Positions 4,931 through 60,327 of a stretch of DNA of 64,000 nt are shown one piece after another. Origin of the DNA: Diphasiastrum complanatum. Lineage: Eukaryota; Streptophyta; Lycopodiopsida; Lycopodiales; Lycopodiaceae. The translations under genes and the position numbers were made by a program. The first letter of the stretch is position 1, and every line of letters starts with the position of its first letter. The stretch is from positions 23,281,390-23,345,389 of the forward strand of contig CM055102.1 in NCBI GenBank assembly GCA_029204225.1, read 5' to 3'. The notes below the pieces were generated by a model, which saw only the letters and a list, made by a program, of their open reading frames with translations, was not told the origin of the DNA and made no database searches.

Positions 4931-5369
4931 TTTCCAATCTCGACTTATAACTCACGTAATTGAAACATAAATGTCTGTTTCCACTACAGTATCGCAGACT
5001 TATACAGTCAATCACATCAACATATAACTAATCGGGGCAGCGGTATTTTTTTAAGCTCAGTCTGCATGTTGATAACTGCTCAGAGGTCTATCTCATTGTG
5101 TGTAGCCTTATGCCTTCTCCGGGTGTCCCCTGAGAGATTCCTGAACTTTGTTGGAAAATACTCATTGCTCCTCTCCACTAATATTTGATTTTGTTGTATG
5201 CTACTTGCACCAAAGAGACACGATGCGCTAACAGATCGAAAAGTAGCTTTCAACTGCAAGTAAATTTATGTGAGCGATTGGAGAAAACCGCAATTTCATT
5301 CATGCTTGCTTGAGTTGTTAGACACCAATATTCATTCTTCCTTCGCCATATCGTGATCATCACTCAGAC
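4931..5369 (+). promoter_or_regulatory. upstream region of the DUF4408/DUF761 gene
   Basis: No gene seen. The stretch must hold the promoter of the gene that starts at 5370; I could not pick a convincing TATA box. No upstream ATG interrupts the last 25 bases before the start. Confidence 0.35.
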
Positions 5370-6221
5370 ATGGAGATGGCAGCGAGGGTCTTCTTTAACG
5401 TGCAAGTCGTTCTACATTCACTTATAAAAACAATTGCTCGGAGAAAATGGATTTTCTCGTTTCTTATCTTCGTCACGTCGTTACTCACCTGGTCTGCTAG
5501 CAATTTTATTCCACTTTTCAGAACCTCTTTCGAGATTCTCGCACCTCAATTATGGCAAAAGGCAACGGAATGGCTCACCCGGCCCGTGCTGTTTCTACTC
5601 GTAAATTTTGTCATTGTTTCAATTTGGGTTACTTCAAGCACGGCCTGCCATGCCAATTTTGATCAGGCTAGCGAGAAAAGATTAAATGAGGAGGAAATTC
5701 AATCCATCAGAATTGCTCCTGGAGAACTTTCTCAGACGCTCTCATCACACAGCCTAGATGCTTTGTGCTGTTCCCAAGCTCATCAACAACAGCAAGATGC
5801 AGAATTTTGTCAACCATTTGGTGGAGCTAATTCCAGTGATCCTCCGAAGGCCAAACTTGTGGAGAAAAAAGCTCTTGATCCAGAGAAGAGAAGTAAAGCA
5901 AAGGCCAAAACCACTACTCGCATTAATTCTGAGAAAAAGATTTCTGCTATTGCAAAAAATTCACAAGCTTCCGAAGAAACAGCCCAGAAACTGACTTATA
6001 AAAAGAAGTGTGCATCATTTCCACGTACTCCTGCCGGTGTTATTGTAAAAGATGTCTCATTTGCAGAAGGAATGGTACCAGACTCTTCCTCGAGCAGGCC
6101 AGAAGTCTTAGTGATTGAGAAGGATGAGCTGAATGACAGGATTGAAGCCTTTTTTGCAAATTTTTGGGAGCAGCAGCGCCTGCAAAGACAGGAATCAATT
6201 CGCCGTCGTCAATACCACTGA
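5370..6221 (+). CDS. DUF4408 and DUF761 domain membrane protein
   Basis: An intact 283-codon gene. The N-terminus has two hydrophobic segments (about residues 27-50 and 73-92), the second reading RPVLFLLVNFVIVSIWVTS, the hallmark of plant DUF4408. The middle (about 100-230) is polar, rich in Lys, Ser and Ala. The last 32 residues (from DELNDRIEAFF to LQRQESIRRR) match the DUF761 C-terminal motif. This pairing and length are usual for plant 'cotton fiber expressed' type proteins, which are membrane-associated with no established biochemical activity. The start is the first ATG of the frame, and a second ATG two codons on is equally possible. No intron is needed. Among few undamaged genes in the window, it is the best candidate for a functional host gene. 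Confidence 0.85.
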   Translation: MEMAARVFFNVQVVLHSLIKTIARRKWIFSFLIFVTSLLTWSASNFIPLFRTSFEILAPQLWQKATEWLTRPVLFLLVNFVIVSIWVTSSTACHANFDQASEKRLNEEEIQSIRIAPGELSQTLSSHSLDALCCSQAHQQQQDAEFCQPFGGANSSDPPKAKLVEKKALDPEKRSKAKAKTTTRINSEKKISAIAKNSQASEETAQKLTYKKKCASFPRTPAGVIVKDVSFAEGMVPDSSSSRPEVLVIEKDELNDRIEAFFANFWEQQRLQRQESIRRRQYH

Positions 6222-24800: not shown

Positions 24801-25617
24801 CTAAAACATTACTGTTGCAGGTGCGGGCATGTCCACGATAACCTTGATTTTTGATGGGTCGGTAGAAATACTGTCCTTTGATATTATATGCCCGAGTACA
24901 ACCCCGCGAGTGACCCATATTTGACATTTATCAGGGTTTAGTGAGATGCCGAACCTACGACAACGAATGAAAATTTTCTCCAAGGCGTCTAGGTGCATAG
25001 CAGCGGAAGAATGTACACCTAGATCATCAAGATAAATCTCCACGACCCGATGTAACAGATCTTGAAAGGCCGGTTGCATGACCCGTTGGAAAGTTGAGGG
25101 GGCATTACATAAGCCAAAAGGCATAACATTATAGGCGTAAACGCCATTCTCTATGGCAAAAGCCGTTTTATGGCTACCATATTAGGACTATTTGAACAAG
25201 GAAATAACCGCTGAATCCATCCAAGAAGCTGGAAGCTTCAACTCTTGCCATTTCCTCTAATGTTTGGGTCGCTAAGGGCAAGGAAAAATGGTCTTTCTTC
25301 ATAACCACGTTAAGGTTCTTGAGGTCAACACAAATACGAAGCTTGCCATTTTTCTTGGGTACAACCACAATGGGTGATACCCAATCAGTATGTTGGACTT
25401 CATAAATGAAGCCAACATCAAGCAATTTCTTAATATCCTCATCGATCCTCTCACGATAGACTGGGTTACTACGGTAAGGTTTAGCCCTAACAGGCTTAGC
25501 ATTGTCTTCTAGAGGAATCTGATGTACTACTATTTCAGGGGGGATTCCTTTCATTCTGGTATAATTCCATGAAAATACATCCCTGTATTTGCGTAATATA
25601 GTTTCTAGATCAGACAA
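24801..25617 (-). pseudogene. Ty3/Gypsy reverse transcriptase
   Basis: In order on the minus strand: YRDVFSWNYTRMKGI, the proline-rich entry PYRSNPVYRERIDEDIKKLL, VSPIVVVPKKNGKLRICVDLKNLN, SFLDGFSGY, then after a frameshift and small deletion near 25150 FGLCNAPSTFQRVMQ and the catalytic box EIYLDDLGVHS, and the thumb start GISLNPDKCQIW...VLGHIIS. This is the typical Gypsy RT order. It is truncated at about 24801, so RNase H and integrase are missing. It is downstream of gag and protease of the same element. Confidence 0.93.
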
Positions 25618-25847
25618 TTGGGTTGATGACAGATGTGCATTAACATGAACTATGTGATCTATGTCCTCGTCAGGATCTTTAAGGTTTACTGGAATTGTCT
25701 TAGCGGGTCCTTCAAAGGAATTGGAACTTGGTGTAGGTTCCCGATGTGGCTACGGTAACTAGATAACAACGTCATCCAGTGTAAAGTCTTTGAACTTCTG
25801 TGGAAGATCGAAAGGTAGGTCCACAAAATGTTCTAGGACTTTATGAA

Positions 25848-26448
25848 TCATTTGAGTTGATTCTTTACAGACGTGGAAGCTTTGTTAGACTGTTTGTTGT
25901 TTGTCCCCTCTGACAAGGGCTTGATTGGCTGTTTAAGCTTGGCACGCATATGTTTTTTATGCTCAATTAATTTTGTATCAATAATTCTATTTTTTTGTAA
26001 CCGAGGTTTTTGTGATTTTTGAATAGGTGGTGTTGTGGCCTCACTTACCATATCGGCGTCGATTGTATCCCAGACTTCGTCGGGATACACATCCCAAGTA
26101 TATACGTTGGATTTGGGCCTATATGCTTGTGTGTCTGGTACTTTGGATGTTAGTTGGATATGAGCCAACGGTCCTGGTGACTTGATCTCCTTAGGAATGA
26201 CTTTGGACGGATAACGTTGAGCATCTAGATAGTGGAGTACATGATCATCCGTCATTTCGACATCATCCATGGAAAGAATACCTTCTTCCAAAACATGGGC
26301 AGTAGAGACACTAGGTTCTCCTGGGCACCAAGCTATAGGAATGGGGTCTATCATCATAAGCGGGATGATGGGTGTGTCAATGTCTGTAGAAGATGGGAGA
26401 ATATCCACATCTTCTGCAGCCGTTTCGATACGACATCTTTTACAAGTA
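25848..26448 (-). pseudogene. Gypsy element, protease-to-RT linker
   Basis: A 200-codon frame rich in charged and proline residues (for example VYTWDVYPDEVWDTIDAD) between protease and RT. Its position fits the variable linker of Gypsy polyproteins. It is cut at 26449 by the insertion described next. Confidence 0.6.
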
Positions 26449-27246
26449 GAGGTGAGAAAGTCCTCCAAATCCAAGGTAGAGCCTCCAAAAGTCCTCCAAG
26501 CAACTTGCAAGCTTCAAGATGCTTCCCAACTCCAAGCTAGGATGCCTCCACCTGCAAGTAAGGATCTGCAAGCCTCCAAGGATCTCTCCTCCACCTGTGT
26601 CCCTACTCTTTAAACACAAAGATAGATAACAAGCTGGCCTCAAGTATTCACCACCCAACCATAGCTAGATCCAAGCTCCAACAAAGACCTATCTAGCACC
26701 CCCTTGCTAACCATAAACAAATCACAAGCATACCACAACATTCCATAGCATACTCAAGATCCAATCCCTACTTATGTCCCATACCATAAGCAGGATCCAA
26801 ACCTCAAGCATACTACCACAAGAAAGCACTCTACACACTAGTAGCAACACTAGAGCATAAGCCAAGCAAACAAGAGAGATCTCTCTCCTCCACAATGGGT
26901 GCCCTACTACCCTCATATAGATGGCCCATGGACCCCTCCAATGCACTATGGAGTTCCATGCTCATCCAATGAGAGAGAGAGAAGCCTAGGGGAGTTAAAG
27001 AATCTCCAAGAGCCTCCATAGGCTTATGGAATGTCAAGAGACTCCTTCCATAACCTATGACTCTTTGAATGCCTTTCTTGTGGGAGTTGGAAACTCAATG
27101 GACACTTTAGAAGGGTGCCCTCCTACTAGGTCCCATTGCCCAAGTTGTGCAAGTATACTTTGGTCCTAGACCAATAAAGTGATATGGTTCAAGGTTGAGG
27201 CCCAAGGTTTAGAAAAATAGTCATCCAATGACTTTCTAACACCTCA
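26449..27246. mobile_element. unidentified insertion within the Gypsy element
   Basis: About 800 bp without retroelement homology separates two parts of the Gypsy polyprotein. The ends are imperfect inverted repeats: left GAGGTGAGAAAGTC and right, read inverted, GAGGTGTTAGAAAGTC. Many CCTCCAA words lie just inside the left end and ATGACT words inside the right. No clear target duplication was found. It may be a solo LTR (ends TG..CA) or a small inverted-repeat element. Confidence 0.45.
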
Positions 27247-27529
27247 CTAGGTTCCATCCAATGACTATTAGGGGTCTGAAGTACTGCTAGTTACATAGGT
27301 ATGTAACAACATCGATTGAATCCGCATAGTCCACGGTGGCTAGTGCATGACCCCAATTGATTATGTCTGTGGTTCATGTATAGTAGCCTTTTGGTTGGAT
27401 CGGGACACTATCTGATTCGTCATATGTTGTAGAAGACCAATCATCGTACACCTTGGCAGGCTTGACATGGCCATTTGAGTCAACAGTGACTCGTTTATCA
27501 TGGTTGCCAAAGCTAATTTTGGTGCTCTT
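27247..27529 (-). pseudogene. Gypsy polyprotein, decayed segment after protease
   Basis: Minus-strand sequence continues past the protease with a stop after GVVQD and readable pieces such as SFGNHDKRVTVDSNGH and VYDDWSSTTYDESD. Homology fades before the insertion. Confidence 0.45.
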
Positions 27530-28015
27530 CTAGTCTTGGACAACACCTGCCATCTGGAGCCAGGGTGTACCAAGAAGGAGCTTATACGTATTGGCATCTT
27601 CTGGTAGGTCTAAGATGACACAATTGATGATAAACTTGACACCTGCTATTCGAACTTTTATATTTGATAAATGACCAACAGGGTCAGTAACTCGTTGATC
27701 AGCCATACGAAGTTTATAACGTGGTTGATCGAGGGTATTGAAGCCCCATGACTTTGCCAATGACAAAGCCATTATATTAACGCCTGATCCGCTATCGAGG
27801 ATAGCAGATATCGGGGGATAATCTTTATAGGACAAAGGTAGTGTGATGTTATTCCCCTTAGCAACACCTATATTCATCAGATTCATAGGAATCTGAGGAA
27901 TTTCTGGAATCTCTTCTGGTTTTCGCTGTTCATCAGGGATAGGAAGCAGTTGAAAACTACGATGGATATAGCGTCGAAGTCTGGTGAAGGATTTGATCAC
28001 ACTATGGAACAACAT
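27530..28015 (-). pseudogene. Ty3/Gypsy aspartic protease
   Basis: A retropepsin-like domain. ISAILDSGSGVNIMALSLA contains the catalytic DSG followed by the usual hydrophobic turn, and the second half has GVKFIINCVILDLP and KLLLGTPWLQMAG, matching the family's ILLGRPWL. In an active element this enzyme matures Gag and Pol. The frame is open for 161 codons and its start is arbitrary, since the protease is normally part of a polyprotein. Confidence 0.9.
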
Positions 28016-28054
28016 GGTGAGTTGAGCTTGCAGGAGGTCAGAAAATACTTCAAG

Positions 28055-28549
28055 TCAATATAGGGATTGCTCCTTTCTGGGAATATGAGCTGATAACAAA
28101 CTTTCCATATGTTCTTCTTCTCGCAAAAATTCATCTCGAAATTTGTTGTATTGCCTTTGTTCCACCTTTGGGTCTGGGTAATCTTTTGGTAATGTGGAGG
28201 CCGTCAAATGGCTTTCATGTGGGTCAGCTGATTGTCCATGGTTTTGCTGGTGTTCTTGATGTTGGCGTTGTGCTCTAGTAAGAACTCTAACAGGTTCGTA
28301 TGTGATATGACGTGTTCGAAGGATCATGTTAAGTTGTTTAGGATAGTCTTTGAAGCTGTGTTTGCGAACACAGTCACGACATTCCGCATGGTATTGGTTT
28401 TTGACTTTATAGTCGGCCATGAAATGTCCTGTTTCACCACAGATAAAACAACGGTTGCTCATTGGTCCGGTGGCGATAGCGTAACCATCTTGGATGGCTA
28501 GTTGTGTTGGGTTTTCTGGTGGTGTGGAATACTCAGCTTGTTTGCACAA
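28055..28549 (-). pseudogene. Gypsy gag C-terminal region with CCHC-like motif
   Basis: It contains RCFICGETGHFMADYK, a zinc knuckle (C-x2-C-x4-H) whose last Cys has become Tyr, and a second Cys/His cluster CRDCVRKHSFKDYPKQ. A Gln/His-rich tail follows. Separated from protease by a stop. Confidence 0.75.
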
Positions 28550-28745
28550 ACATGAGTTGTCGGTTTGATACTGGTGATGGCTAGATGATGGAATTGATGT
28601 ATCATGATGATATGATTGATCGTAGGAGTTTTCTACCAGGTGTGTGTGGGCAAACTCTCGAGGATGTCTATGTTTTTGTGCTCCTAGATCCTGTTGTCCT
28701 CATGGTGGTGGTCCTAAGAGTGCCAGTTGTGGTTGAGGTTCATGT

Positions 28746-29144
28746 CTAGGTTGTCTGGGCAACTCTTGTATATGGATCTGGTTGTTTCGTGGTGGATAGG
28801 ACATGCGTTGTTGCTGTGAAACAAATGGTTGTCGAGGAGGTTAACAATGTCCTCCTGATTGGTTGTGAGGCTGATGGGTTATAATAGCAATAAAGGGAGG
28901 TATGACCCATAAAGTCGCAGCTTTCACATTTGATCAGGGAGGTATCTGGGACCGGTTGGTATGAACGGCACTCATTGCCAGTGTGTGTACCTTGGCAGTG
29001 AGGGCACCACGTGTTCTCTCGTCTATGGTGGATTTGGCCAGTGGGTAACTGACCTGGCATCGAACTTTGGATAGACTTAGGAATGTTTTGAAACTCTTTT
29101 GTGAGTTTCTCCATCTGTTGGTGTTGCTGATTAAGCAACTCCAT
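28746..29144 (-). pseudogene. Gypsy gag middle region with Cys/His clusters
   Basis: A 132-codon frame with WCPHCQGTHTGNECRSY and KCESCDFMGHTSLYC, two knuckle-like motifs as in the gag of some plant Gypsy elements. Coiled Gln-rich start (LLNQQHQQMEKLTKEFQNI). It follows the gag core after a frameshift near 29270. Confidence 0.7.
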
Positions 29145-29281
29145 CTATGTTTTCCATAATTGTTCTCGTGTGTCATCGTTTGGTCGAGCTTCTTGGATGA
29201 CAAGATGTGCTCTCCGTTCACGTGGTTCATCCACATCTGAGCCCTCGTCTTCTTCCCAAATGGCATCAGACATGGCCTGTT

Positions 29282-29986
29282 TCAATGATGTATATCATCA
29301 TTGGAACAAAGTTCACGTCGTATCCATCGTGGGAGTCCAACGAGAAACCAAATGATGAGCATGGACTCAGTAGGTTGCTCTTGTACCTGACTTTTTAAGT
29401 GTTTAAATCGTTCAACGTAGTCACGTACTTTTTCGTCTTTTGTCATTTTGATATTAGTTAGTTTGACAAAGGGACTTTCTATCAAGCAAAAAGGCTTGAA
29501 CCGTTTGATGAAGGCCTCTTTCAAGAGTAACCAGTCACGTTTATCTTCACGATTGAAGTTAAAAAACCACTCTCGTGCGCGATCGATCATGGTCATCGAG
29601 AAGAGCTGGACCATGGCCTTTGGTGATGTCTCGTCGTAGACGTCACAGGCGTTCTCAAAGACTTGGAGAAATCTTTGAGGATCAGTGTTACCATTGTACT
29701 TAGGTAAGTCTAGCTTTGGGGTCTTTTTTTCAGTACGTGGAACATTATTTGCGAAAGCTCCATTTAAGTGAGCTCGTGCATGTGAGGATTCGGTAGCATG
29801 AAATTGTGATCGCTCGTATGGAGCTTCATAACGCATAGGTTCCCATCTGTCGAATGGGTTTGTGGATGTCTCTTGGTCTTGGGATTTCATCCGGGAATAC
29901 CTGTTAAATCGAGCCTGTTCGGTGGATGGGGAGACCATCTCTGGTGGATAGTCCTCTGTAGTATTCGGATCATAAGGGCGATCCAT
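29282..29986 (-). pseudogene. Ty3/Gypsy gag core
   Basis: A 234-codon frame with the Retrotrans_gag signature: LDLPKYNGNTDPQRFLQVFE, then MVQLFSMTMIDRAREWFFNF, WLLLKEAFIKRFKP, and EKVRDYVERFKHLKSQV. It starts at the first ATG after a leader of about 0.7 kb. This is the first gene of the minus-strand element whose protease and RT lie at 28015-24801. Total element length is consistent with a 5' half plus RT only. Confidence 0.9.
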
Positions 29987-30009
29987 GACAGCTCGTAGAG
30001 TGTCGTAGG

Positions 30010-30660
30010 ATTGTGGAAATAAGACCGTGCACTCTGGTTACGGTGGATACGGTTGTTGGAATGCGATTGTTGTGGTCTGTGGTTGTCGATTGAGGTCTAT
30101 TGCGGTCTATTGCGGTTTATTGCAGTCTATTGCGGGCTGTGACGGTTGTGTGCGGGTGATGGCAGTCGTTGAAGGTCATATGAGTCATAGGCCGTAATAT
30201 GGCGGCGGATGGTGGTCGATTGGGCTGGACCGTCGATGGCAGTTTGTTGTAGTTGTAGGAGTCATAGGCCGTAATATGGCGGTGGATTGCGGTCAAGGGC
30301 AGTTGTGGCTCTCGTGGTAGGCCGTAAGATGCGGTTGTGAAAATCTGTGTCGAGTTGTTACGGTTGTGGAGGTTGTGTCGATAATTTTACGGTCTGTTAA
30401 TGGTTGTCGGAAGTCGTTGGTGGTCGTTTATGGTGGAGGATTACGGCTGTGACGGTTGTTTGTGGGTTGTTAATGATGATGAAGGAGTCGTAGTCCGTAA
30501 TATTGCAGTCTGCTGCGGGCTGTGACGGTGCGGTGTATTCGTAGCAGGTCGTAAGATGGCTGGTGTAAAGGTCACGAAGGGTTAGGAATGGTTGATGGAG
30601 GTCGATGGCGGTTGTTTGCGGGTGGCTACGGTCATGGTGGGCGATGTGCATCCTTGTCTG
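30010..30660 (-). repeat. repetitive leader of the Gypsy element
   Basis: About 650 bp upstream of gag built from degenerate GT-rich words on the plus strand: TATTGCGGTCTATTGCGGT runs near 30100-30140, and GTCATAGGCCGTAATATGGCGG at about 30186 and 30268, with diverged forms at about 30320, 30485 and 30545. It is GC-richer than its surroundings. No primer site could be assigned with confidence. Confidence 0.7.
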
Positions 30661-34633: not shown

Positions 34634-36440
34634 TCAAGATCTGGTTCCCAGTTTAATGATTAAATGTCTAGGGAGACGACTGATGCGTTTGGAGACAGAA
34701 ACATTACGCTTGCAGCGCTTTCCACATCCCTTGCAATGAAAATTTTCAGCAGTCAAATCGTAAACAGACTCATCATACTCTTCATGCTCATGGCGAGAAG
34801 AATTAATATGGTTATTCAAACCATTCAGATCCTTGAATAGCTTGAAACACAGAAAGCATACATATCCCCAGCCTTCATGAGACTCTCCCGTTGTGAATTT
34901 TTCGGTTGGATCTTCAAGCTCGTGGCGGGGAGAGTTTAAATGCATGTTCAAAGAATTCAGTTTCGTAAATGGCATTTGACATAGGTGGCATACATAGGTA
35001 CACCGTGCACGAGAGCGTTCTGTTGCAAACGTGCCCAGCTCTGTTAATGATTCGACGTTAGATCTGCACATATATAAAATGTCATGAAAACAAGTAGTAT
35101 TCATTAACAGTGCTGGCGCAGATGTTACTAATTGCTCGTCTCAAGTAATTTTATTCGGCATGTATGCAAAAATAGAGTTGGACCAAAGGACATGACATTG
35201 TAGTATGAGGAAAAGCTTAAAATCAGACTTGTTAATCAGGAGACGGGGGCAGAACGAGGCTTGACTATTATACTAAATTCACGCTTGAATGAGTTCTTAA
35301 ATTTGCAGCTTGCCTCAGAGTTTGGTGGGGGGATTCATTTTCAACTGATCGAGTGAGAAGACCGCAATTTCCAGAGTATTCCTCCCATAACTTGATTGCT
35401 GTCAGAAGATCTTGCTGATGAAGCTGTACCGCGCACCTCTGGCCGGGCCTTTCAAGCTGTAACTCGCGATACCAAAACAAAGCAAAGCTAGTCAGTACTC
35501 AGCATTATTTGAACATCCAAGGTTCATTGAATCGAGTTCCAGCATCTGAACTATAAATCTAAACCATTGCAATGAGGACTGAGCATGTGATGGAGTCCAC
35601 AGGCATGAAGAAAACTGATTCTGTTTCCCAGGACTTTTGCCATTGCAGATTTCTGCTACCAAATTTTGTAAACTCTGATAGTCGTACTCTAACTTAGGAA
35701 GGCTTACAAGGGGATAACTAAAAGACGGGCGCTTCAGACAACAACAATCATATAAACTGCTAATTTCCCATAACAGACTTGTGAGTTCGGAGCGTGATGT
35801 ACCATTCTCGACAAAAATACAGCGCACACCCATCCATATGATTCAAGGTTCAGTCTCGTTATCACTGTAGTAGAGAGATCAGAAGTTGAGGTACTTAATT
35901 CAAGCAGACTCGTGAGATGTCAGTTCTAGAGCCCCAACACTAACACATTTACCATATCAGATCCAACATCCACACGAGAAAGCTCACTGCAACTAAGGAT
36001 AGTTCAAAGTAAAATATTAAGCATGAATATGGAAAGAATATTACAAGCTCGTTTCGTACACTCACGTGCATTGCAAGACCTAAGGGCTTGTTGAAGATGC
36101 TCCCACATTCAGGGCACTTGACCACGGCTCCAGGATTATTGAGATGGAGGAAGGATTTGAAATGTTGCATCAATGCCTTTGAAGTAGTGAAGTCTAGATG
36201 ACATGTAACACAGCAAAATTGGTGGTTCGAAGAGCAGGCCAAGTGTTTTCTGAATCCTTTGATCGTGGAGAATCCCAGCTTGCACTTGATACAATAAAAA
36301 TGATCCTCATGCACATGCTCGTGATAATCTACCCTTTTCTCGAGGGTAAAAGCACAAAATCGGCATACAACGAAGCAATTATCTCCTAGCTTGTAGCAAG
36401 ACATGTTTGCTAAGATTAGTTCACGATCCGCTTTCCTCAC
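34634..36440 (-). CDS. multi-finger C2H2 zinc-finger protein, several exons
   Basis: Exon 1 (36440-36066) encodes a Cys/His-rich N-terminus: VCRFCAF...DYHEHVHEDH, YCIKCKLGFSTIKGFRKHLA..NH, CCVTCHLDFTTSKALMQHF..FLH and CPECGSIFNKPLGLAMH, ending at a good donor (CAC|GTGAGT). The last exon (35063-34634) begins after TATATGTGCAG and encodes YVCHLCQMPFTKLNSLNMHL..PRHE, YVCFLCFKLFKDLNGLNNHI..SRHE and a final FHCKGCGKRC cluster. One or more middle exons lie at 35100-36060; I could not fix them because the obvious acceptors give early stops. The fingers imply nucleic-acid binding in the nucleus. The finger order and the NSLNxHLNSPRHE wording resemble multi-C2H2 proteins common in fungi. No stops occur inside the two clear exons, so it may be a live gene. 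Confidence 0.7.
35268..35833 (-). other. possible middle exon(s) or intron of the zinc-finger gene
   Basis: Two open frames (35833-35492 and 35480-35268) lie between the clear exons. They lack Cys/His fingers and are out of phase with exon 1, so they may be intronic. Transcript data would be needed to decide. Confidence 0.25.
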
Positions 36441-53664: not shown

Positions 53665-54260
53665 TGTGAAAGTTTTCAGATCAATTAAGATCCAAACCTT
53701 CAAAATGATGTTGGGTGAGAAAGACAAGCAACTCACCAATCTTGCCAATGTAGAAAAACCAACATCTATCTTGATCAAACATGAATCAAAACATAAATTA
53801 AAGTTTATTTCTGTACAAAAACAATAAGCTACTGTATTTCACATGTGTGGATCTGAAAATAGCTTTTAATGAACATTCTACACACAAAATTGCAAGATAT
53901 CAAAAGTATAGTGCACCAATGGATAGTAGAACCCAAGAGAACCATGTATAAGCATGAATGAGATAAGAGATAGAGAATTGTATCTCTTCCCATGAGTTAC
54001 ATCCTCTTTTAACAGATCCAAACCTAAATATAAACTTTGATTTCCCTCCATAATAGAAAACCCTACTATATTGTGACTAGATTCAATGTCTCTACTACTC
54101 AAATTTGAATATACTAAAACTCGTGTAATATGAATTTTTACACACTTTCCAAAAGTGTTTATTCAAATGCTTTTAGACTAATATAACTTTGAAAAATCAA
54201 ACTCTAACTCTAATATGAAATTGGCCTCAAATGCCATATCAACAAATGTAGCAAATTTGA
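53665..54260 (-). mobile_element. 3' LTR and pol tail of family C Copia
   Basis: 53665-53768 (TGTGAAAGTTTTCAGATC onward) matches 60219-60322 with about 5 differences, so it is an LTR terminus. The inner edge of the LTR could not be placed; the rest to 54260 is LTR or decayed pol tail. Confidence 0.75.
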
Positions 54261-55127
54261 CTAAACTAGTTGAATAGTGGCTTGTTTCTTTGACATCCAT
54301 GATATAGCTCCATCACCTATAAAAATACAATAAGCACTTATGGATTTCCTATCCATTTTATCTCCAGCATAGTATGAATCTGAAAATCCAAAAAAGTTAG
54401 ATGATGATCCCTCACACAATATGCCAAAATCTTGAGTTCCCATGATACACTTCAAAACTCGTTTTCCTAGCTTCCAATGCTCCTCACTAGGATCTTGCAT
54501 GAATTGACTCAATCTTCCAACACAGTAGCTTAGATCTAGTCTAGTAATGGCTAGATAGATGAGTGAACCAACTAGCTTCCTATAGAGAGTAATCTCCTTG
54601 AAGGATCTTTCATTACCTCTTATAGTTAGCTTTACATTTGACCCCATAGGTGTATCACAAGCTTTTGCATCTACCATATGAAATCTTTCTAGAATAGAAT
54701 TAGCATACTTCTCTTGACAAATAAAAGTAAATTGAGAAGATCTGATCACTTCTATTCCTAATATATAATGCAAGTGACACGATCGTGCACCTCAAATTCC
54801 TTCAATAAGAGCACTCTTGATATCCTCCACATCTTGATTGTTTCCACCACTCAAGATGATATCATCCACATAGATTAGCAGTATGGTAATATCATTTCCA
54901 GCAAACCTATAATAAAGTGAATGATCATACTCACTCATAACAAAGCCTTGAGAGAGTAAAAAAGTGTTAAGCTTAGAATACCAACTCCTTGGTGCTAGCT
55001 TAAGGCCATACAAACTCTTTTGTAGTAAACACAAATGCTTTGGCTTTGTAGGTGAAATGTAACTCTCAAGTTGCTCCATTACACTTCCTCCTCAAGATCA
55101 CCATTCAAAAATGCATTTGTAGACATC
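54261..55127 (-). pseudogene. Copia RT and RNase H start (family C)
   Basis: Minus strand from 55127: a frameshifted DV.NAFLNGDLEEE region, then SLYGLKLAPRSWYSKLNTFL, ILLIYVDDIILSGG with the catalytic YVDD (about 54861-54875), LHYILGIEVIRSS, and the tail GSLIYLAITRLDLSYCVG to AISWMSKKQATIQ. It is the same family as 1-905. RT homology stops exactly at about 55127, where the H3-like gene's upstream region begins. Confidence 0.92.
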
Positions 55128-55604
55128 TGTCACGTGCGAGAATGACACGCGACGATTAGGGATTCGCGCATGTGTCTCAGCCCACGTGGCCTCATAATTG
55201 GGTCATCATTGTCAGTACGGACATTCCACATGGTCTAATCATCTGGCGACACGTGTCTCGTCCGTGTTTTCACACATGCAAAAATTTCGTATATATAAGT
55301 TGTGTTTTCATTTTTTTCCGCAAAATTTTCACTTTTAGCTCCCGATATTGCTCTCAAGCGCGCTCTTTCATCTTTCAAGCTTCTGCCCTCTCATAGTGCG
55401 GTCAAGTCCGATATCGCCTGTTGTGCAATATCGCTTTCGAGCGCATATCTCTTTTCTGCAAATAATCTTTGTAGATCTTGCGCTCGAAACTGATATTCAG
55501 TGCTGGTATCGATCTCAAGCGCCCTTTCATCGCAAATTTTTTTGTTTTGATCCACTTTTGTTTTGTTCAAACTTCTTTTTGTTAATTTTCTTCTTCCGAG
55601 AATG
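55128..55604 (+). promoter_or_regulatory. promoter region of the H3-Ulp1-like gene
   Basis: Three G-box cores CACGTG lie at 55131, 55183 and 55250, an inverted CCAAT (ATTGG) at about 55197, and a TATA box TATATAAG at 55292-55299, in the right order for a plus-strand plant promoter. About 300 bp of pyrimidine-rich leader follow to the ATG at 55605. The sequence starts right after the truncated Copia RT. Confidence 0.6.
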
Positions 55605-57700
55605 ATGGCCAGGACCAAATCCACCGCCCGTGCCATCACCACTGTACAACCATCCCATTCTCGTGTTCCTACTGGTACTGGTCGTAGGTGTGACAGGAAG
55701 TAGGTCTGGCTGAGGGAGATCAGAAAACTCCAAAGATCAACTGAATTGTTGATCCCTAGAGCTCCTTTCAGCCGATCTGTATGGAATGTCGCTCTGTCAC
55801 TTGGGCTGGATGTTTGTTTTGCCGTGACAGCCATGTACGGTGCTACAGAAGATTTTCTGTCCTAGTTTTTTGGAGATTCGTGTCTTTTGACAGTGCATGG
55901 TAAGCGTGTCACCATCATGCCAAAGTATTTCGTCATTCTCAAAAGGCTTTGAGACAGATATTATGGTCTGCATGTTGATAATGTCAGCACCTCCAGAGAC
56001 CTGCATCTGGATAGAACCGATTTGCCTACTACCTCTAGGAGGAAGAGAAAGCAGCCTGTCTCCAAGAAGGCTGGATCTCGAAGGCCAGCTGCTTCCCTTC
56101 CTCCTAGAGTTATCCCGACCAAGAGACCCTGTGTCTTCCTGAGCTCTGAGTCAGATGCTGGAGAATCTCACTCAGATCGAGAATCTTCACCCCTTCCTCC
56201 TCCTATTATTCGTCCAGCTCCTTAGCAGGTTTCAACACCAAAAGTGTTGATTACCCAAGAGGAGCTAGACAAAATAGTAGAGAAATATGTAAATATTGTT
56301 TTCACTTCTGTTTCTACTCCTTTACATAATCTTTTTGTGAGAATTCCATACGATCCAGCCCAGGTTTTTTTATATTTTGACCATTATAATCAATACGAGG
56401 CCTACCTAGCTAACAAAATTGATCTTCTTGGCAACTTTTTTTATTTTTTTCTTTCAGATACACGTAGAAGCTTTAGATTAGGTCCCAAATTTTGTGCTGA
56501 GCTAAAAGATAAGACCTCAAAAATTTCAGATGCAATAGTAGAGGCCGGAGTGTTTTTTTTTGCAGAATAATATCAGTTTCGATTCCCATGGTACAGTTTC
56601 TGTAGTTAGTCCATTTTTCATGGGAGCGGTAAAGGCGAAAAAAGCCAATTTTGAGAAGGCTGTCTATTTTATCGAGTGCAGTCCTATGGCAAAATTCTAT
56701 TTGATTCCATATGGAAATAAGTAAGGATTGCTCTTTTGTTTTTGTTGCTTTAATCTGGATTGTTGCATGCCTCATTGCTTTAATAAGAACTAAATTTTTT
56801 TATAAATATGAATTTAACGATATTTGTATCTTGGTTGTTGCAGTCGGCATTGGAGCCTAAACATTCTTTTTGTAAAGATTAATAAGGAGGGAGTATCAAA
56901 TTTTCTATGTGTAAAATTAAACTCAGCTGCAAATACACATAGAGAATTTGTTTTACTACTTCATGATGTCATTCGGAAAATACCGACAATGACAACTTCA
57001 ACTAAGATATAACCATTAAATCTCTCAAGGTATATTCAGTTTACCTCTGATACATGTATTTCTTTTTTAATTCAAATGTATCGTCATATCATAAATAAAA
57101 TTTCTATCATAATATAACTAATTTTCATTCTATGTATGTAGTGTGTACAGCAAAATGACGCTTTTAGTTGTGCATGGTTCGTCCTGTACAATACAAAGCT
57201 ATTTTTTGAATGGTATAATTTACAAACGGATGTAGATATTGAAAAGATGATATTCTATTCATTTGTGGTTCATTTCATTCTGATTTATATTTTATTACTA
57301 TCATTGTTTGTAATCTGCTGATTCTCGTGTTTCGTGATGACGGTTCACTCTTGAGTCGTATACTCCTGATGATGTATATAGATTTCGGCAAGAGTTGATC
57401 AGAACCTTTGCCCAGTACGGTGTAAGCGTTGCACCTGCAATCGAGGGCCCTCAAAAGGAAGCTGCTCCTGCCTTAACAGCCTTTCAGGTTGTTCAGGATG
57501 CAGATCTTATTTTATATGATCAAAAAGAAATAAAAGTCCTTCCTAATACAAAGGCAGGCAATTTTGTAGCAGATATTCCTCTTGCCTTAAAAGACATTGA
57601 GGCCCTTCTCGAAACAGAGGAGGGCGAGATTATAGAAGGACATGTTGCTTTATCAGTTCCTAATACTGATATAGAAAATATAGAAAAATTGATTGAATAG
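55605..57700 (+). pseudogene. histone H3-like domain fused to a Ulp1/C48 protease-like domain
   Basis: The start at 55605 gives MARTKSTAR, one change from the H3 tail start. Residues 37-58 read LREIRKLQRSTELLIPRAPF, close to H3 but with CenH3-like LLIP.APF. Residues 81-107 read TEDFLS-stop-FFGDS then HGKRVTIMPK. In-frame stops lie at codons 33, 87, 116 and 207 and at 56568. The frame continues through a basic stretch (RRKRKQPVSKK), an acidic Ser patch and a helical region. A one-base shift in the T run at about 56551 leads to FYLIPYGN. Proposed introns: 56721-56844, 57030-57141 and 57232-57355. After the first comes RHWSLNILFV (catalytic-type His-Trp) and KLNSAA (where Ulp1 has Asp). After the second comes QQNDAFSCAWFV (Gln-x5-Cys, as in Ulp1), then YTPDDVYRFRQELI. 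An expected role would be chromatin-linked SUMO or ubiquitin-like processing, but this copy looks dead. Confidence 0.65.
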
Positions 57701-58035: not shown

Positions 58036-59364
58036 CTATTCATAACAGATCGAGTGTTTACAATTACTTGCAAGTTTACCATTGAAAATGAATCTGAAGT
58101 CTGAAAGTACATCATCTTGTAGGAGCAATAGTTCTTGCCGGACGTAGTTTAGACTCCAATCTTCCTCAACCTCAACACATGTCAAAACAGCATCATTGTA
58201 TATAATTTCAATATATTTTCGTTTTGAATGTCCACTGGCTTTCAAGTCTTGATCAAGTGGCACCCATTTACCTTTATTTTTTTCCATCTTTGATAATGGA
58301 AGCATAAGCTCAACATTTGTTTTTCAATTTGATAACGGAAGCACATGGAAGACATTTTAATTCTGCATTCTATTTCTCCATCTGATCTTTTGTCCCAACC
58401 TTCATCCATAAGTTCAAATAATAAACTATCTAATAAATTTTTGCATACAAACATCGTTGGGGTTTTGTGTACATTGACACTTATATATTCAAGGAAATAA
58501 ATCAACTCAATCTGATTGTTTTTTATCTCGTGCTCATTTTAATGAGTTTTTTATATCATTATATATCTTGCAACAAAATGATTCTAAAACTGTAGCATCT
58601 GGTGCAATCCATTCATAACTTTCAAAACTAGGTAATGGAATTGATACTATTTGTCCAAAATTTTCTTTTGTATCAGGAATGTACATTAATTTATAAAAAA
58701 AGATTCCACTATCAGCTAGATCTTTGCAGTTCTACCTTGATATTGTAGTTGTCCAATTTCAGTGTGAATAACATCTAACACACCTGCTAAAGATCCACTC
58801 GGCTCTCATTCATTTATATTGGATGGATATAAATCCGCAAGAGAAAAATGATCAGATTAGCACGTTTACTATTAGATATTTATGAATGACAAAAATCAAA
58901 GTATCAAAAATATCAATACTCACAGTTGTTTTTTTTGTAATCCTGACGGTTGAATCCTTGCACATTTATCTCTGAATGCATATATACATATTGGACTAGG
59001 GTTTTAGAAATAGATTTTCCTCCTAATGATGTTCTAAAATCCAAAATTCTGTCCTTCCAATAAGATCGAAATAATAGTTTTGACCTTTTTCTTTTTCGAA
59101 ATTCTCCTCTTGATGATGGATGCATCAAAACCCAAGAGTTTTTTGAATATTTTCTTGGCACCCATAATCCATTATCATCTGTCTCGTTGAATAGAAGAAC
59201 AGAGTCGATTGAGGAGCACGGCTTCCTTGATGGCACCATTCGTAATTTGCATGCAAAAATCTGAAACAATAAACTATGAATCTGAAAATTCGCGTAGACA
59301 AAAAGCCATGAATTTGAGAAAAAGTGTTGGCAAAAATTTGAAACATTGATCTATTTGACGCCAC
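58036..59364 (-). pseudogene. unrecognised gene with probable introns, convergent to the H3-Ulp1 gene
   Basis: Coding-like blocks on the minus strand. Block 1, 59262-58924: starts after an acceptor TTGTTTCAG, encodes MVPSRKPCSSIDSVLLFNE, NGLWVPRKYSKNSWVLMHPS, KILDFRTSLGGKS-type and Lys/Arg-rich sequence, and ends at a donor (AACT|GTGAGT). Block 2, about 58800-58530 in broken frames: GVLDVIHTEIGQLQYQGR and PLPSFESYEWIAPDATVLES. Block 3, 58505-58242: VHKTPTMFVCKNLLDSLLFE and GEIECRIKMSSMCF. Block 4, 58305-58036: KRKYIEIIYNDAVLTCVEVE then VRQELLLLQDDVLSDFRFI. Frameshifts separate the blocks, so this copy is likely broken. I do not recognise the family. The LRFIF-N-G ending faintly recalls small ubiquitin-like folds, which is a guess. 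Confidence 0.5.
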
Positions 59365-59692: not shown

Positions 59693-60198
59693 TCAGGCTC
59701 TAAGTTTCTCTAATGCTTGATCTTGCCCTTTAGACCACTTACTTTTGCTTTTGCCCTTGAATTTGCCCTTGATGAACATAGCCTCCTCTCCAACTTGAGA
59801 TGTTGATGAAGATCCACCTCTTTCTTGAAGCCTATATTCTTCATTGATCAAGATCTCTTGAAGATCAATCAAACTTGGCAAAGTCTTTTGAATAGCAAGA
59901 CTTTGAACAATGTTAGCATGAGCATCCAACAATCCTTTAAGAATAACTTGAACAAGCTCTCCTTCCTTAATGCTCTCATCAATGCAAGCCAATGCTTTCA
60001 CTCTCAAGATAAAAGTATTTGGACTTTCTTCATTCTTTTGAAAACAAGAAAAGATTTTTCTTCTTAGAATAAACACTCTAGATGTAGACTTGGATTCATA
60101 AAGAAACTAGATTTTGGTGTAGAATCCAATCTATCATGCTCTAACATTGATATCTTCTCCAAATCATTGATAAATGTGAATGCTTCCTTCATAACATG
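59693..60198 (-). pseudogene. Copia gag fragment (family C)
   Basis: Minus strand: MKEAFTFINDLEKISMLEH near the primer site, then the frame 60076-59693 with ALACIDESIKEGELVQVILKG, LPSLIDLQEILINEEYRLQE and a Lys-rich tail. This is the central and C-terminal part of a Copia gag. It breaks off before the zinc knuckle at the edge of the two-gene cargo. The first residues of gag are missing or too decayed to see. Confidence 0.75.
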
Positions 60199-60218: not shown

Positions 60219-60327
60219 TGTGAAAGTTTTTGGATCAATTAAGATCCAAACCTACAAAATGATCTTGGGTTAGAAAGACAAGCAACTCACCAATCTTGCC
60301 AATGTAGAAAAACCAACATCTACACTA
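60219..60327 (-). mobile_element. 5' LTR of family C Copia, truncated
   Basis: It matches 53665-53768 at about 95% over 104 bp, then the match stops. The outer part of the LTR has been lost or replaced. Confidence 0.8.

Follow-up and report, generated by a model that had tools for sequence, protein, structure and literature searches.

What does a 64,000-nucleotide stretch of the Diphasiastrum complanatum genome (the window, whose positions are used throughout) hold at 55605 to 57700: the remains of one gene in which a histone H3-like domain was joined to a Ulp1-type (C48) protease, or two unrelated pieces that lie side by side? An earlier note, made from the letters alone, had proposed a single ancestral gene, now probably dead. 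We examined the two halves, the frame between them, their relatives and the surrounding mobile DNA. Coordinates of the features are collected in Table 1.

Table 1. Features at and around the H3–C48 locus, in order along the window.
Feature	Positions	Strand	Details
LTR-like direct repeat, presumed 3′ LTR	53665–53768	−	104 nt, 95% identical to 60219–60322
Copia reverse transcriptase fragment (RNase H part by eye)	54264–55129	−	RVT_2 PF07727, E 4.4e-27
Presumed promoter and 5′ untranslated region, as read from the sequence	55130–55601	+	TATATATAA at 55290
Histone H3-like domain	55605–55952	+	PF00125; stops at 55701, 55863, 55950
Linker	55953–56225	+	H3 frame; K/R-rich, then S/D/E/P-rich; stop at 56223; GC 0.50
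Middle region	56226–56567	+	H3 frame continues; stop-free
C48 segment exon 1	56566–56720	+	Frame shifted at T-run near 56555
Putative intron 1	56721–56843	+	GTAAGGA ... TTGTTGCAG; GC 0.28
C48 segment exon 2	56844–57029	+	RHWSLNILF ... VKLNS; stop at 57010
Putative intron 2	57030–57141	+	GTATATT ... TGTAG; GC 0.21
C48 segment exon 3	57142–57264	+	CVQQNDAFSCAWFVLY
Putative intron 3	57265–57355	+	GTGG ... TTGAG; weak sites
Last exon	57356–57700	+	YTPDDVYRFRQ ... LIE, TAG end
Possible second gene remains	58036–59350	−	ORFs, e.g. EVEEDWSLNYVRQELLLLQDDVLSDFRFIFNGK; within the block of about 4.5 kb
Copia gag fragment	59696–60106	−	Retrotran_gag_2 PF14223, E 1.3e-6
LTR-like repeat, presumed 5′ LTR	60219–60322	−	Adjoins possible primer site

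The histone H3-like domain

The histone-fold identity of the 5′ part is certain and beyond chance. It matches the Pfam Histone profile at 60.3 bits (E 2.8e-16; curated cut-off 26.4), and among the best 60 of 174 PDB matches H3 chains appear at E about 1e-15. The stretches that the earlier note had picked out as H3, MARTKSTAR, LREIRKLQRSTELLIPRAPF and HGKRVTIMPK, do lie in a single frame from 55605, and Ala occupies the alignment column of H3 Lys9, the residue it had reported absent. Read through its stops and numbered from Met, the domain lacks any Lys between positions 5 and 32, both of which are Lys. Gaps in the alignment with H3 are whole codons, and a GGT sense codon stands at the aligned place of H3's own stop, beyond which the frame continues.

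Over 85 core columns, identity to plant H3s was 39–40% (n = 4) or, for a fifth, 47%; an H3-like protein of Sanguina aurantia was 42% identical, and 22 aligned relatives ranged from 37 to 45%. The domain has neither the near-identity nor the tail lysines of canonical H3.1/H3.3. It resembles H3 and CenH3 in its MARTK start, alpha-N, LLI..APF region and HGKRVTIMPK, and differs from them in a short loop 1 (3 or 4 residues shorter than in H3), a tail without most of the lysines, and a C-terminal extension. A CenH3 origin was considered and is not favoured over a canonical one by the profiles. Its motifs are attractive, LLIP.APF being presumably CenH3-like, but the domain scored 69.0 bits against a canonical-type profile and 69.3 against an algal variant-type profile, the type that we take to be centromeric, and its loop 1 is shorter where that of CenH3 is expected to be longer. 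Of 121 proteins considered for these profiles, 12 lacked the anchor motif and were left out; patterns divided the remainder into 52 canonical, 35 variant and 22 'other'; distinct sequences (43 canonical, 26 variant) were used and the 'other' class was left out.

The shared frame and the C48-like segment

The same frame, counted from 55602, runs on to 56567 and, as had been claimed, is interrupted only by stops: 4 in 322 codons, at the positions given in Table 1. No dinucleotide shuffle of this interval reached 4 or fewer in frame (0/2000; mean 18, minimum 7), nor did any of a further 2000 in which the best of three frames was taken. The other frames contain 17 and 20 stops on the plus strand and 15, 8 and 23 on the minus strand. 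When each segment was compared with 5000 Markov resamples, the H3 part alone was not significantly depleted (3 stops, 5.1 expected, fraction 0.24), whereas the linker had none in 90 codons (4.9 expected, fraction 0.005) and the middle region none in 114 (7.6 expected, fraction 0.0002); the depletion of the whole interval thus stems from the linker and middle region, not from the H3 part alone. The last exon was also free of stops over 114 codons (7.9 expected), with 0/5000 resamples as low. Across the three codon positions GC hardly varies in the H3 part (0.46/0.50/0.47), which has no codon periodicity, and is 0.46/0.29/0.25 in the middle region and 0.60/0.32/0.27 in the last exon.

The middle region matched no Pfam family in the profile search. 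Reading the linker as an intron was set aside as unlikely by composition, since its GC of 0.50 compares with 0.21–0.34 in the putative introns. From 55917 in the H3 part to 56620 in the C48 part, about 700 bases, there is no in-frame Met, so that a C48 gene standing alone would require a different 5′ exon. At about 56226 GC steps from 0.50 to 0.34, and a possible splice acceptor, TTAGCAG/G, adjoins the step. A perfect 14-nt inverted pair (TCGAAACTGATATT) lies at 55484–55497 and 56569–56582, in the presumed 5′ untranslated region and at the frame-shift point.

C48 proteases carry, in order, His-Trp, Asp and Gln-x5-Cys. The earlier note had connected such motifs to the H3 frame through a one-base shift and three GT-AG introns, a model that held in its first steps: with the shift at the T-run and the first intron allowed for, YGN reads in frame into NRHWSLNILFV. 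Splicing at the GT-AG pair 57030/57141 puts exon 3 (QQNDAFSC) off frame by one base, so that this junction calls for one more small change or a different splice site, and the third intron, assessed with its start one base below 57265, has weak sites.

For profile searches the exons were joined by hand, with stops as X. The C48 peptidase profile, PF02902, was the sole Pfam family found in all four overlapping versions of the segment, at 19.9 bits (E 7e-4) when the middle region and last exon were included, 17.6 bits (E 0.0037) when both were omitted, and 18.7 and 19.4 bits for two other cuts; every version fell short of the curated cut-off of 20.7 bits, by 0.8 to 3.1 bits. The reversed segment, used as a control, gave no PF02902 match. 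His-Trp and Gln-x5-Cys occur in order, and Asn stands where the Asp is expected, in agreement with the proposed Asp-to-Asn change. The Asn follows the His by 24 residues, and the His-to-Asp distance of yeast Ulp1 is shorter. Against the PDB (phmmer, E up to 10) no C48 chain was retrieved, the only match being a pilus protein at E 0.15. Judged from its sequence, then, the 3′ half is likely to be of C48/Ulp1 type, at scores below the curated cut-off.

Relatives, decay and Copia surroundings

The earlier note had looked to an intact copy, or a further locus with the two domains side by side, and the protein collection yielded neither. The joined sequence, scored against the 7993 candidates with the most shared words, matched 34 proteins, 33 of them with Histone, none with C48 and none with both domains. 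A query of H3 plus linker, in a search confined to proteins of about 114–362 residues and thereby excluding a full-length fusion, matched 87, all with Histone and none with C48. Among 2782 candidates for the middle region, C48 part and tail, no relative of the middle region or C48 part and no C48 protein among the homologues was found; the one match, P0011 (Diphasiastrum complanatum O6H91_Y440400), is confined to the last exon (67% over 86 columns, P0011 residues 319–401), the rest of P0011 being without match. It is the sole relative found outside H3, and is perhaps a gene model running into a copy of the same element. A viral origin was set aside: of 3 pattern matches to the middle and C48 parts in one scan of viral contigs, none was confirmed. 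Among the best matches in the open-access literature searched, no H3–Ulp1 fusion was evident by title or abstract start; nothing in that literature combined ulp1, histone fold, transposon and plant, or lycophyte, transposable element and ulp1, and 'ulp' is absent from the available part of the text of PMC5735166.

That this copy is dead, as had been suspected, is supported by its five stops (the fifth in C48 exon 2), its frameshift and the one-base mismatch at putative intron 2. How the H3-like part decayed was approached by simulation. If a plant H3 decayed neutrally until 45% identity was left, 3.2–3.3 stops would be expected, and 3 are seen, so the stop count does not discriminate. With indel rates assumed at 0.05 per substitution or more and four fifths of indels assumed to shift the frame, the same decay would bring at least 7.6 indels (at 0.05) and a probability of no frameshift of at most 0.0024. 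Given these assumed rates, the lack of a frameshift indicates that the H3-like part was probably still coding through most of its divergence and died later. A plain H3 retro-pseudogene is compatible with the stop count; it is disfavoured by the missing frameshift, at the assumed indel rates, and by the open extension.

The gene lies antisense to a Copia remnant, at the place where protease and integrase would be expected. Fragments of gag and reverse transcriptase (the latter queried as two ORFs joined with X) are found in order between LTR-like repeats, the LTR reading resting on one 104-nt repeat pair, and a possible primer site (GCTCTGATACCA, plus strand from 60207), which we take to be of tRNA-Met type, adjoins the presumed 5′ LTR. 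No Copia protease or integrase was seen between the two fragments. What separates them is a block of about 4.5 kb, whose plus strand carries the H3–C48 gene and whose minus strand carries ORFs at 58036–59350; these ORFs gave no Pfam match and are perhaps part of the same mobile element. Reverse transcriptase breaks off at about 55122–55130: a related Copia copy at 1–545 (−) is 88% identical to 54578–55121, its similarity ends at 55121, and by eye it runs past the break point as a Copia-like ORF at 572–931 (−). Absence of the protease and integrase from the Copia around it suggests that the gene was carried by, or is buried in, mobile DNA.

The block ends showed no convincing terminal inverted repeats (25 longest of 64 pairs) and, by eye, no target-site duplication. 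As for a gene of the Kaonashi/KIU MULE type, the neighbouring ORFs that were scanned had no Pfam match, and a search of the window for a second copy returned matches at chance level only. Elsewhere in the window we observed an ORF at 5322–6218 (+) with DUF4408 and DUF761, which we take to be land-plant families and which, together with P0011, fits a clubmoss genome, ORFs with several C2H2 zinc fingers at 34637–36440 (−), and a Gypsy/Ty3-type element at 24804–30037 (−) with gag (PF03732, E 4.2e-14) and, by eye, RT-like ORFs nearby.

One gene or two, and known systems

We favour, without regarding it as proven, a decayed copy of one H3–Ulp1 fusion gene among mobile DNA, and put its chances somewhat above even. 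The main rival, which we hold to be possible and the less probable of the two, is that two unrelated pseudogenes adjoin, one H3-like and the other Ulp1-like with its true first exon lost or elsewhere, that they were never one protein, and that transposon insertion or a Copia rearrangement brought them together. The GC step with its plausible acceptor suits two joined sources, the H3 part alone is neither depleted of stops nor codon-periodic, the protein collection yielded no fusion, and the Copia block is clearly rearranged. However, two pseudogenes do not readily account for a linker that has no stop in the H3 frame and leads, still in that frame, into the middle region, for a sense codon in place of the H3 stop, or for a C48 gene with no in-frame Met before 56620. 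It is on these three features that the single ancestral gene of the earlier note is preferred, in spite of the GC step and the flat codon periodicity of its H3 part. Also counted for the fusion were the H3 profile match, the low stop count of the whole interval, the C48 match that the reversed segment does not give, the lack of a frameshift in the H3-like part, the contrast in GC between the linker and the putative introns, the recurrence of the last exon in Diphasiastrum and the Copia parts on both sides; counted against it were the C48 scores below cut-off, an H3 stop count equal to that of neutral decay, and the lack of a second two-domain copy, of relatives for the middle and C48 parts, of a convincing terminal inverted repeat and of a target-site duplication.

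The remaining alternatives concern the nature of the 3′ half and the route by which the block arrived. If only the 5′ half were what it seems and the 3′ half were some other orphan protein with chance His-Trp and Gln-x5-Cys, the PF02902 scores under the cut-off, the lack of a C48 chain in the PDB search or of a C48 protein among the homologues, and the long His-to-Asn spacing would be understandable; such a protein would not be expected to find PF02902, and no other family, in each of four overlapping versions while its reversed sequence finds none, and we consider this quite improbable. Capture is compatible with the other readings: through a template switch, Copia would have taken up about 4.5 kb of host DNA in place of protease and integrase and moved as a chimeric retroelement. 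The order of gag, block and reverse transcriptase between 95% identical repeats agrees with this, as do the putative introns, whose retention is expected of antisense capture. We nevertheless think it unlikely, given that no second copy of the chimera was seen in the window, that neither ends nor a target-site duplication are established, and that a nested insertion plus a deletion explains the block equally well.

According to the fusion-gene explanation, the ancestor would have been a multi-exon plant gene whose single transcript encoded an H3-like domain, a basic and then acidic linker, the middle region and a C48 domain with its tail, and which came to lie antisense in a foreign block inside a broken Copia without protease and integrase. 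In the living protein the H3-like part would have paired with H4 or provided some other nucleosome anchoring, and the C48 part would have cleaved SUMO or some other ubiquitin-like tag from nearby chromatin proteins; the outcome would most likely have been relief of silencing, by analogy with Ulp1-bearing plant transposons. A much bolder version, to which we give little credence, is that a histone of its own evolved in a mobile element of a clubmoss: lacking Lys9 and nearly all tail lysines, the H3-like domain would enter nucleosomes and direct a protease of Ulp1 type to the chromatin of the element itself (or of centromeres), stripping ubiquitin-like tags so that the element escapes silencing, and intact members would still exist in Lycopodiaceae.

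Several known systems join Ulp1-type domains to mobile DNA, and are compared here on the available parts of the papers cited. Kaonashi/KIU genes place Ulp1 (C48) domains in Mutator-like (VANDAL) elements of flowering plants (PMC6117577; PMC13317346), and the present gene resembles them in having a C48-like domain in a plant mobile-DNA gene; it differs in its Copia setting, where neither a MULE transposase nor terminal inverted repeats were seen, and the word 'histone' is absent from the available main text of both papers. SUMO is described as an improbable target of KIU proteins (PMC6117577); we counted this against the fusion-gene explanation as proposed, and it means that a different ubiquitin-like protein could be the tag. 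Ginger1 transposases, which carry Ulp1 or OTU domains at the C-terminus, likewise have a ubiquitin-like protease domain joined to a mobile-element protein (PMC2836005), whereas no integrase core was found here and 'histone' does not occur in the available main text of that paper. An H3–Ulp1 architecture, if true, would have no other example in the protein-collection searches made. VANC anti-silencing proteins of VANDAL elements cause loss of silent chromatin marks (PMC10398659), and some of them have a Ulp1 domain (PMC13317346); an anti-silencing outcome of the kind suggested for the H3–C48 gene would, by analogy, be common to both. VANCs recognise short DNA motifs, in contrast to the histone-like aiming part proposed here, and the precise role of Ulp1-type proteases in plant transposons is stated to be unknown (PMC13317346). 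Fusion to a histone-like domain, if true, would suggest chromatin itself as the target, and the anti-silencing idea would become testable.
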